Positions 17,996 to 31,229 of a stretch of DNA of 32,880 nt are shown piece by piece. Below the pieces are notes generated by a model, which did no database searches, had not been told where the DNA came from, and saw only the letters and a list, made by a program, of their open reading frames with translations. Positions within the stretch are counted from its first letter, which is position 1. Every line of letters starts with the position of its first letter. Both the position numbers and the translations under genes were made by a program. The stretch comes from Nonomuraea corallina (GTDB taxonomy: Bacteria > Actinomycetota > Actinomycetes > Streptosporangiales > Streptosporangiaceae), in contig NZ_JAPNNL010000070.1 of assembly GCF_027620315.1 (NCBI RefSeq), forward strand, positions 1 to 32,880. Reading direction: 5' to 3'.

Positions 17996-20900
17996 GTGGG
18001 CCAGAACACGGTGGCGAACCGGTTCCAGCTGCTGGCAGCCCTGGGCAAGGGCAACATGGGTGAGGTCCACCGTGCGCGGGATACGGAGGACGACAACCGC
18101 GAGGTCGCGGTGAAGCTGATCCTTCGCAGCCGGTCTGGAACGGTCCTCGACTCACGTGCCGATGCCAAGGCGGTGCAGCGATTCGACCGCGAGGTGCGCA
18201 TCATGCACAGGCTCGAGCACCGCAACCTGCCACGCACCATCGCCGGCGGTGTGGATGCCTCCGGCTTGCCGTACCTGGCCATGGAACTCCTCGACGGCGA
18301 ATCCCTCAGCGATCTCATTTCCGAGCATCCGCAGTTGCCCGTCTCCTGGGCCGCGGCCCTGGGGGCTCAGATGGCGGACGCGCTGTCCGCCGCTCATGCC
18401 GTCGAAGTCGTCCACCGCGATCTCAAGCCCAGCAACGTGATGCTTCTGCGCGGCGGCCTGGTCAAGGTCCTCGACTTCGGCGCGGGCCGGATCATCGGGG
18501 ACATCGAGCACAGCAAGATCACCAGCACGGGCGTCACGGTCGGCAGTGCCCGCTACATGGCCCCCGAGCAGTTCCGTGCCTCGGCCGTCACCCAGGCGGC
18601 GGACCTGTACGCCCTGGGCTGCGTGCTGTTCGAGATGCTCGCCGGTGTTCCACCGTTCCACAGCGAGTCCGCCTACGAGCTGGCGCAGAAGCACCTCACC
18701 GAGCAGCCACCTCCCATAAGCCTGCTCCGTTCAGATGTCCCCCAGGACTTCACACGCCTGGTGGAGCGGTTGCTCGCCAAGGACCCGGCCGACCGCCCCG
18801 CTGACGCCGTCGCCGTCCGGGAGGCGTTGCTCCCCCTCGTGGGGGAAGCGAGCGCGGTTCCCGGCTGGTCGGATTTCGACCCGATGGCCTGCGCCAAGAC
18901 CAGGCCGGCCGACCATGTCCCGACCTCGGCGCCGGCTCCGGAACCACGCCGCGCAGGCTCTGGCATGGACGTCTTCGGCGTCCACCAGCAACTGCTGAAG
19001 GACTACAGGGCGTTCACCGAGGGCGGCACGATCATCCGCGACGGCCGGATCGCGGCATTCGTCGAGGAGGACCTGGACGCCAAATCGCAGTGGCCGGATC
19101 CGTGGGTCTCGCTGAACCCGTTCTTCAAGTCGGGCGGAACGGTGCTGGAGGCGTCCCAGAACGGGATCCTGCATCCGGAGTGCGCCCGCATCTTCCAGAT
19201 CGGCAAGACCGAGGACGGCACGGAGTGCGACGGCCGGCCGCTGACGCTCCACCAGCACCAGCTCGAAGCCATCAAGACCGCGCAGTCCGGCAGCTCGTAC
19301 GTGCTCACGACCGGCACGGGCTCGGGCAAGTCCCTGGCCTACATCGTGCCGATCGTCGACAGGGTGCTCAGGCAGCGCGACCAGGAAGGCTCGAAAGCCC
19401 GGAAACGGGTACGCGCGATCATCGTCTATCCGATGAACGCCCTGGCCAACAGCCAGCTCAAGGAGCTGGAGAAGTATCTGAGGGACGGTTACGGCGCCGG
19501 CCGGGAGAAGGTCCGCTTCGCCCGCTACACCGGTCAGGAGGACGAGACCGCCCGCAAGAAGATCCGCGACGATCCGCCGGACATCCTGCTCACCAACTAC
19601 GTGATGCTGGAGCTGATGCTCACCCGGCCCGAGGACCGCAGGTCGCTGATCAGGATGGCCGAAGGACTCGAGTTCCTGGTCTTCGACGAGCTTCACACCT
19701 ACCGTGGCCGGCAGGGCGCCGATGTCGCCCTGCTCATCCGCCGGGTACGCGACGCCTGCCGCGCCGAAAGCCTGCAGTGCATCGGCACCTCGGCCACCAT
19801 GGCGACCGAGGGCACGGCCCAGGACCGCCGCGACGAGGTGGCCCGGATCGCGACGACACTCTTCGGCACGCCCGTCGACGCCTCGAACATCATCGGTGAG
19901 ACGCTGGTCCGCGCCACCGGGGAGCCGCCGGAGACGGTGCCGGTCGAGCGACTGACCGCGCCCGGGGCGCCCCGCGCGTACGAGGACCTGGTCAGGGATC
20001 CGCTGGCCCGCTGGATCGAGACGCGCTTCGGGCTGACCGTCGACGAGGAGGGACGGCTGGTCCGCCAGCACCCGGCCAAGATCGAGGAGGCCGCGGCGGA
20101 GCTGGCCGGGACGAGCGGCCTGGACACGGAGAGGTGCGCGGACGCGATCCGGGCCACGCTGAAGGCCGGTTCGGAGGCGTGCCATCCGCTGACCGGCCGC
20201 CCGCTCTTCGCCTTCCGGCTGCACCAGTTCCTGTCCAAGGGTGACACGGTGCACGTCACGCTGGAGGACGAGTCGAGCCGTCACCTGACCCGTGACTACC
20301 AGCTCTACCAGCCGGGGACCGACGGCAAGATCCTGCTGCCGCTGGCCTTCTGCCGTGAGTGCGGCCAGGAGTACCTGACCGTGTGGCGCTCGGAGAAGAA
20401 CGGCAAGGTGGTGTACGGCAACCGCCGGGAGACGACCGCTACCGGAGGCAGCGGTGAAGACGGCTACCTCTACATCGACTCCACCCGCCCCTGGCCTTCC
20501 GGTGTCGAGCAGGCGTTGCAGGATCGCCGGCTGCCCGAGTCCTGGCTGGAGTTCGACGCGCACGGCGGGGAGGTGGTGCGGGACTCCTACCGGCCGAGGG
20601 TTCCCCGTCTCGTGACCGTCGACCCGTACGGCGTGGAGGGGCAGGGCGAGCTGAAGGCCGCGTTCATCCCGGCGCCGTTCCTGTTCTGCCTGCACTGTGG
20701 GGTGAGCTACGAGCAGGTTCGCGGGAAGGACTTCGCCAAGCTGGCCCGGCTCGACCAGGAGGGCCGCTCCTCGGCGACCTCGCTGATCTCCGCCTCGATC
20801 GTCCGCTCGCTCAAGGAGGTGTCGGCCGAGGCGCTGAAGAAGGAGGCCCGCAAGCTGCTGACGTTCGTCGACAACCGGCAGGACGCCTCCCTGCAGGCGG

Positions 20901-30000: not shown

Positions 30001-31229
30001 CCGAGCGCATCTTCCAGCTCAGCCCGGAGGATATCTCACTGATAAACCCTAACACCGGGACGCTACCCATCTTCCGCACCCACAAAGATGCCGATCTCAC
30101 TGCGGCAATCTATCAACGCCTTCCCGTTCTGTGGAACGAGTCACAGTCCGACGGCAACCTTTGGCGCATATCGTTCAAAAATCATTTCAACATGACCGAT
30201 GATTCTGACCTATTTCGCACTGCAAGCGAACTCCAGATAGACGGCTGGGAGCTTCAGGGCAATATATTCGTTCGAGGAGCCGAACGGATGCTGCCTCTAT
30301 ACGAAGCGAAAATGGTAAATTTCTTCAATCACCGGGCTGCAGACGTAGTCAAGAGTGAAACCGCAGTGAACCGACAGAAGCAACCACGCTACCTAACGCA
30401 AGAAGAATTAGGAGATCCAACACGAGCCGCCATCCCCCTTGAGTGGATCGCCGAGGAAGGAAATATTCCTACTCGCAGGAACGGAAAGGATGTCGAGGTG
30501 CCAGGAGTGTCACTGCGCCTGGCCGAGCTAGAGTGGGATCGAAACTGGCTCTGCGGGTGGTGTGACGTAACTTCGGCGACAAACGAGCGCACCGCCGTTC
30601 CCGCCATAGTACCGCGCGCTGCGATCGGACACACCTTCCCGTTGCAGCTACCACGGGTTGCACCTACGCTCACAGCCGCGCTAGTCGCCGCTCAAAGTGC
30701 CTTGGTGTTCGACTTCGTTAGCCGACAGAAGATTGGGGGACTCCACATGGCTCTCATGACCTGGAAGCAGCTACCGGTTCCAGCCCCTGACTCGCTAGAG
30801 CCTCATACCCGGTTCCTAGTCCCTCGCGTTCTTGAGCTCGTATATACAGCTCACGACATAGCCGGCTTCGCCGAGGATCTTGGCGACACCCAGGGCCCGT
30901 TCAAGTGGAACGAGGAGCGTCGATCTAGAATTAGAGCAGAACTCGACGCCTATTTTTTCCACCTTTACGGCATTAGTCGGCCCGATGTGGACTACGTCCT
31001 AGAGACCTTCCAATCGAAAACCGGCGGACTCAAGAACAATGAAATCGCTAAATACGGCACCTACCGTACCAAGGACTTGGTCCTCGAAGAGTACGATCGA
31101 ATGACAGTAGCGGGAGTAAGCCTAACCGTTCCGCTCATGGACGGAAAGAACTACACGTCTACGCTCAACCCACCGCCCGGCAATGGCCCCCGCCACCCCG
31201 CTCGAGACGAGTCGGAGAGCGAGAGCTAG
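27090..31229 (+). CDS. Adenine-specific DNA methyltransferase, Eco57I/PglX/DrmMI-like
   Basis: This 1379-residue gamma-class N6-adenine methyltransferase is the third gene of the operon. It probably marks self DNA. The SAM-binding motif is DPACGSGHF (513-521), followed by [22 protein letters not shown], and the catalytic motif IV is NPPW (790-793). The N-terminal 450 residues hold a domain seen in Eco57I-like and PglX proteins ([30 protein letters not shown]). About 580 residues after NPPW form the putative target-recognition and C-terminal region, whose GC content falls to roughly 43-52% in sampled blocks against about 75% near motif I. The ATG overlaps the previous stop as TGATG and follows GGAGGGG. 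Without biochemistry it could also restrict, as type IIG enzymes do, but no nuclease motif is evident. Confidence 0.88.
   Translation: [1379 protein letters not shown]

Follow-up and report, generated by a model that had tools for sequence, protein, structure and literature searches.

Kinase-fused ARMADA type I operon of Nonomuraea corallina, a candidate phosphorylation-controlled anti-phage system

A three-gene operon of Nonomuraea corallina encodes a helicase-nuclease with a fused Ser/Thr kinase, a second helicase and an adenine methyltransferase. It lies in positions 1 to 32,880 of contig NZ_JAPNNL010000070.1 (GCF_027620315.1), a stretch of 32,880 nt referred to as the window. In gene content, gene order, phylogeny and domain anatomy the trio agrees with ARMADA type I, and these sequence features argue strongly that it belongs there. 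With a probability of about 0.6, the operon encodes an anti-phage system of ARMADA type I that has a kinase-fused ArmC, a restriction-modification-like mode of action and a helicase-nuclease controlled by phosphorylation. Active-site residues, variability of ArmB and loss in a relative were, like the four features named above, observed directly.

Operon structure and assignment to ARMADA type I

ARMADA was named in a 2025 preprint by Bell et al. (PMC12458937), whose main text describes type I as a YprA-like helicase with a Vsr nuclease (ArmC), a BrxHII/RapA-like helicase (ArmA) and a PglX-like methylase (ArmB). The window encodes these three families on the forward strand, in the order ArmC, ArmA, ArmB of type I. 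Gene 1 (17996-24220, 2074 codons, GTG start) encodes an ArmC-type YprA-like helicase-nuclease with an N-terminal Ser/Thr kinase. Gene 2 (24220-27090, 956 aa) encodes an ArmA-type BrxHII/RapA-like SNF2 helicase, and gene 3 (27090-31229, 1379 aa) an ArmB-type PglX-like adenine methyltransferase. TGATG at 24218-24222 and 27088-27092 gives a 1-base overlap at both junctions. A preliminary description of this DNA had reported the same codon counts and overlaps, which are confirmed here; its view of gene 1 as a helicase with DUF1998/MZB, nuclease-fold and Ser/Thr kinase parts is supported by Pfam, weakly for the nuclease (DUF559). Codon-position GC of the three genes is consistent with coding. An alternative in-frame GTG at 17978 is a possible start of gene 1, but the ribosome-site-like stretch GGGAGCGAGG sits between 17978 and 17996. 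An artefactual gene 1 fusion made by a frameshift was rejected on two grounds: the Pfam kinase domain is present in all of the best 120 of 8000 homologues (2021-2129 aa), and the same fusion occurs in independent genomes.

In a tree of ArmC, the window falls in a 28-row ARMADA type I clade with a Shimodaira-Hasegawa-like approximate likelihood ratio test (SH-aLRT) support of 99. Escherichia coli ARMADA II, a Streptomyces ARMADA II-like helicase and two Druantia III helicases lie outside this clade. A Thermus locus, tagged type II by gene order, and the archaeal Haloquadratum join beside it on long branches.

The trio is conserved across genomes. In a scan of named genomes, the best 80 of 526 relatives were kept (the 80 named loci). 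The gene 1 helicase is upstream of gene 2 on the same strand in 79/80 and gene 3 is downstream in 78/80, counts that indicate more than a chance association. Gene 2 was found in 21/396 Actinomycetota genomes, including the window's own; the other 20 have gene 1 in 19 cases and gene 3 in 19, and in both misses (G127 and G129) the gene 2 match reaches the contig end on the side of the missing gene. A class-level sample had gene 2 in 8/197 genomes, 3 of them already in the Actinomycetota sample, giving 26 genomes in the pooled samples. Five of the 26 have the fused kinase (the window's own, G023, G455, G531 and G404). In 17 the gene 1 match begins at residue 299-324 and no kinase match lies within 1.5 kb around it, two have a partial gene 1 (G240 and G357), and two have no gene 1 beside gene 2 (G127, cut by the contig end, and G485). 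Genome G485, of the same family, has a gene 2-gene 3 pair (locus L065, 9830-16791) with no gene 1 relative in 19.8 kb; its sole YprA-like helicase is distant (pieces of 34% and 49% identity) and on another contig. Gaps of 0.4-7.1 kb between ArmC and ArmA or ArmA and ArmB occur in 13 loci, mostly outside Actinomycetota (L118, L122, L124, L127, L129, L131, L132, L135, L137, L140, L141, L142 and L145), and the L129 gap contains a UvrD-type helicase.

Domains and motifs

The PknB-like Ser/Thr kinase domain occupies gene 1 residues 11-269 (18026-18802; Pfam Pkinase, 3.6e-43), with K40, HRD at 140-142, DFG at 160-162 and T176 in the activation loop. A linker of poor conservation and low model confidence (residues 281-322, 18836-18961) connects it to the helicase. 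Pfam places RecA1/DEAD at residues 420-603 (19253-19804), with the Walker A motif TGTGSGKS (19310-19333) and DELH (19685-19696), and RecA2 Helicase_C at residues 1279-1351 (21830-22048), with motif VI RSGRAGR (22022-22042). Two CxxC pairs, C786/C789 and C898/C901 (20351-20701), are invariant in a 71-sequence alignment and are read, by comparison with the main text of PMC12458937, as a zinc-binding module inserted in RecA2. Type I is described with a BrxA-like helical insert after RecA1; the predicted gene 1 model has helices at this place, but the Foldseek matches listed were kinases.

The oligonucleotide/oligosaccharide-binding (OB) region has a predicted zinc-binding insert with four invariant cysteines, C1643/C1646/C1659/C1662 (22922-22984). 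Judged by eye, the invariant columns contain no other set of four cysteines ahead of those of DUF1998; type I has one zinc insert in this region, and type II and Druantia have two (main text of PMC12458937). The canopy module, with its DUF1998/MZB zinc cluster, follows at residues 1825-1919 (23468-23752; Pfam), and a Vsr-type PD-(D/E)xK nuclease domain with D2003 and D2018 at residues 1968-2064 (23897-24187). Pfam DUF559, a Vsr-like nuclease family, matches residues 2011-2051 weakly and under its cut-off. Helicase, DUF1998 canopy and C-terminal nuclease thus stand in one protein as in type I, and the C-terminus agrees with the type I feature of a "predicted active Vsr-type nuclease".

Gene 2 has Pfam SNF2/ResIII and Helicase_C domains, with GIGKT (24586-24600) and DEAH (24892-24903). 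Gene 3 matches Eco57I/N6_Mtase and has the S-adenosylmethionine-binding motif DPACGSGHF (28626-28652) and the catalytic motif NPPW (29457-29468). In an alignment of 57 sequences (56 of the 80 named loci and the window), GSG and NPPW are each present in 57/57.

Comparison with other defence systems

Defence-profile searches, the Pfam scan of the window and the ArmC tree do not place the trio in DISARM, Druantia, Dpd or BREX-2/Pgl. The preliminary description had proposed a new, unnamed DISARM-like system; this is not borne out, as the trio matches the published ARMADA type I description. Its likening of gene 2 to DrmD and gene 3 to DrmMI of DISARM class 1 stands as a relationship (PADLOC, 269 and 209 bits), but NCBIfam DrmD scores 294 bits against a cut-off of 610. 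DISARM was also rejected in that no separate drmB or drmC was recognized, as had been said: Pfam detected no drmB-like or phospholipase D-like gene among the 20 other open reading frames (ORFs) of the window, some of which are overlapping alternatives. The system already has a name; the apparent novelty, smaller than had been proposed, is the N-terminal PknB-like kinase by which the window ArmC differs from ARMADA type I as published. This fusion was seen in one actinobacterial ARMADA I clade and is not in the main text of PMC12458937, where "kinase", "serine", "threonine", "Hanks" and "STK" occur 0 times each.

ARMADA type II of E. coli shares the three core protein families but differs in locus L179, where the order is ArmA-ArmB-ArmC with a further helicase gene and where ArmC falls in another clade. 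Type II was rejected: its fourth gene, a GajB-like helicase with a RelE domain, was not recognized in the window, whose scanned ORFs gave no UvrD-type match. Druantia III shares the helicase family (PADLOC DruE3, 349 bits to gene 1). It was rejected, with two DruE rows outside the window's clade (support 100) and no DruH-like gene recognized in the window; DruE has a phospholipase D domain where gene 1 has Vsr, according to the main text of PMC12458937. BREX-2/Pgl is a further defence locus that pairs a Ser/Thr kinase with a PglX-like methylase, but in the window the kinase sits on the helicase. NCBIfam scores were 49 against 990 for PglW and 55 against 400 for PglX, and neither PglZ nor BrxC was found with Pfam among the window ORFs scanned. 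Gene 2 resembles Dpd in scoring 1663 bits with PADLOC PDLC02853, labelled DpdE, but NCBIfam DpdE gives 200 bits against a cut-off of 500. PDLC02853 is also the top match for kinase-less ArmA (1069 bits in G385, 769 in Deinococcus radiodurans), and for these two reasons the DpdE label seems misleading. Profile scans with PDLC02853 may report ARMADA loci as DpdE, so loci may be miscounted.

The fused kinase

The nearest matches to the gene 1 kinase in the PDB are PknB. Foldseek with the N half of gene 1 gave PknB 5u94 as the top match (template modeling score by target 0.88), and Mycobacterium tuberculosis PknB chains in the Foldseek list have scores of 0.79-0.90. In a set of 121 sequences, comprising the window and the best 120 of 8000 scored homologues, K40, H140, R141, D142, K144, D160, F161, G162, P190 and E191 are invariant, T176 is kept in 121/121 and N147 in 120/121. 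The linker has a mean column conservation of 0.46, and the predicted local distance difference test score is <50 at residues 304-321. Because the linker is weakly conserved and modeled with low confidence, the kinase is probably tethered flexibly to the helicase.

Among the 80 named loci, 34 have the fused kinase, 4 have a separate and divergent kinase, and 11 are cut too short upstream to judge. A helicase tree of 75 rows (74 named loci and the window) places the fused loci and locus L097 in one clade (SH-aLRT 100). Its sister clade (SH-aLRT 98) consists of the four divergent-kinase loci and L094, and both clades are jointly supported at 100; thus, 4/5 sister-clade loci bear a separate divergent kinase gene. 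These PknB-like kinases, in Streptomyces loci L095, L098, L099 and L104, lie at about 3340-4510 on the reverse strand, in ORFs of 328-372 codons (stop to stop) head to head with a kinase-less ArmC.

A kinase tree of 51 rows included 18/34 fused loci, the window, the 4 separate kinases, 20/40 matches from the window's own genome and 8 more. Fused kinases group in a clade of their own (99/95), as do the separate kinases (100/100); a common clade of both was not rejected (approximately unbiased test, p 0.30). Kinase and helicase identities correlate (34 sequences, Mantel r 0.96, 0/2000 permutations as high). This joint divergence and the catalytic residues kept in 121/121 suggest that kinase activity has been under long selection. 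Elsewhere in the window's own genome, the kinase part is matched 40 times. Several matches of ~250 aa lie within ~130 bases of the starts of contigs C367, C56, C349, C161 and C102, and are perhaps repeated kinase genes that break the assembly.

Variable half of ArmB

ArmB residues ~600-1240 (28887-30809, forward strand) form its most variable half in identity profiles of operon pairs, compared among 57 sequences (56 of the 80 named loci and the window). This half may be the target-recognition region and points to a possible seat of sequence specificity. In three of the closest pairs (L066/L102, L102/window and L072/L088), ArmC is 94-97% identical, ArmA 94-95% and ArmB 64-69%. In L072/L088, ArmB identity is 0.88-1.0 over the first ~580 residues, 0.27-0.63 over residues ~600-1260 and 0.90 at the end. 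In the L102 pairs, the first 600 residues of ArmB are also lower (0.58-0.93), and the mosaic is less sharp. The profiles look like swapping of target recognition in part of the operons.

Mobility and loss

Neighbours were surveyed with a simple ORF caller at 81 loci (80 named and the window) and labelled from 1-2 representatives each. McrB-like ATPases recur at 18 loci, of which 4 are kinase-fused, UvrD-type helicases at 13, N6-methylases at 12, McrC at 9 and an OLD-type protein at 3. Plasmid pNOCA01 of Nocardioides JS614 carries drmB, ARMADA I and McrBC together in one stretch. A kinase-fused copy is on a Streptomyces megaplasmid, kinase-less loci are on three IMG/VR viral contigs, and a kinase-less copy is on D. 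radiodurans plasmid MP1. On MP1 (L176, 12817-17342), annotation splits the ArmB-like part into two methyltransferase genes; an IS630-like transposase comes next, beyond which the gene 3 match resumes.

The same-genus genome G565 keeps the left flank 12524-16381 at 91% identity, then pieces of the upstream region. The upstream stretch and first gene 1 codons are kept (17901-18041, forward strand), with ~15 codons of gene 1 remaining (17988-18041, 89%). None of the trio is present in ~12 kb past this remnant. The whole genome (one contig, 100% complete) matches neither ArmA (E <= 1e-20) nor the ArmC helicase (E <= 1e-10). The right edge has no match to the window. The remnant is most simply read as a deletion of the system.

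Proposed mechanism and alternatives

The system is attributed to defence because of its patchy spread, defence-type neighbours, plasmid and viral relatives, loss in G565 and variable ArmB half. Anti-phage activity of the window copy, and adenine methylation with its site, are predictions. ArmB would mark self by methylating host adenines, with its variable half choosing the site. ArmA and ArmC would travel along phage DNA that is unmarked or replicating, which the C-terminal Vsr-type nuclease of ArmC would cut; DruE, a related helicase, loads on 3' single-stranded DNA (PMC13192584). The kinase, on its flexible tether, would (auto)phosphorylate the complex upon infection or a change in cell state, and phosphorylation would switch the helicase-nuclease between restrained and active. 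Kinase activity, substrates, trigger and direction of the switch are all putative. If this holds, a eukaryote-like kinase switches a restriction machine built on a helicase-nuclease. A widespread defence class that was named only recently would thereby gain a signalling input, and it can be tested directly whether phosphorylation arms or restrains a defence helicase-nuclease. Operons with a fused, an adjacent or no kinase, together with one natural loss of the kinase, are ready comparison pairs from soil actinomycetes.

Several observations weigh against this reading. No kinase is seen in 31/80 named loci despite at least 1 kb of visible upstream DNA. One of the 31, L097 (Streptomyces sp. AC1-42W), branches within the fused clade; it has no kinase match, and the open frame upstream of its helicase shows no kinase. 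Kinase-less ARMADA I is thus common, and in principle the system can do without the kinase. In 5/121 fused homologues the glycine-rich loop has a gap. Ser/Thr columns particular to the kinase clade are not in excess in ArmA, ArmB or ArmC, and no sensor domain or phosphatase was recognized. Some kinase-less members (such as L100, L108, L115 and L119) have a degenerate nuclease motif, and ArmB shows no swapping in L066/window (0.83), L075/L081 (0.82) and L099/L104 (0.88). The absence of the kinase from L097 and many ARMADA I loci would fit an ordinary type I system whose kinase is incidental, functionally minor or already in the supplement of Bell et al. Long selection, as suggested by the conserved catalytic residues and joint divergence, and the separate kinase gene of the sister clade make this account rather unlikely. 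A distinct phosphorylation-gated subtype is proposed tentatively: an actinobacterial ARMADA branch may have a PknB-type kinase, fused or, in the sister clade, as a divergent neighbour, perhaps acquired independently.

It is also unlikely that the kinase is the damaging arm of an ARMADA type I system, phosphorylating host proteins upon infection to stop growth (abortive infection), a role that has been proposed for other defence kinases. The PADLOC PD-T4-6 and Mad6 models do score the gene 1 kinase and the separate kinase of L095, and a suicidal role has been raised for PglW kinases (PMC12839542). The same models, however, score two otherwise different PknB-like kinases and may say little on function, and the pairing of each giant helicase with a single kinase suggests that the substrate is local. 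Anti-phage activity was demonstrated for E. coli ARMADA type II systems, and the type II tested acts by a direct, non-abortive mechanism (PMC12458937). Very improbable is a DNA-repair or genome-maintenance unit tied to kinase signalling, for which the YprA/MrfA helicase family, with its other main branch repair-related (PMC12458937, main text), and the 40 other kinase-part matches could be cited. The grouping of ArmC with ARMADA I and the same features that point to defence argue against repair.

Flanking genes

Beyond the trio, no further defence gene was recognized in the Pfam scan of the 20 other window ORFs, which encode transport, regulatory, hydrolase, lectin-domain and unknown proteins. 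The next gene to the right of the trio (31423-32448, reverse strand) encodes an HTH_31/DUF5753 regulator (Pfam). This family is common in actinomycetes, so its occurrence in flanks may be background; it is found at 21/35 kinase-fused, 3/37 kinase-less and 1/4 divergent-kinase loci.

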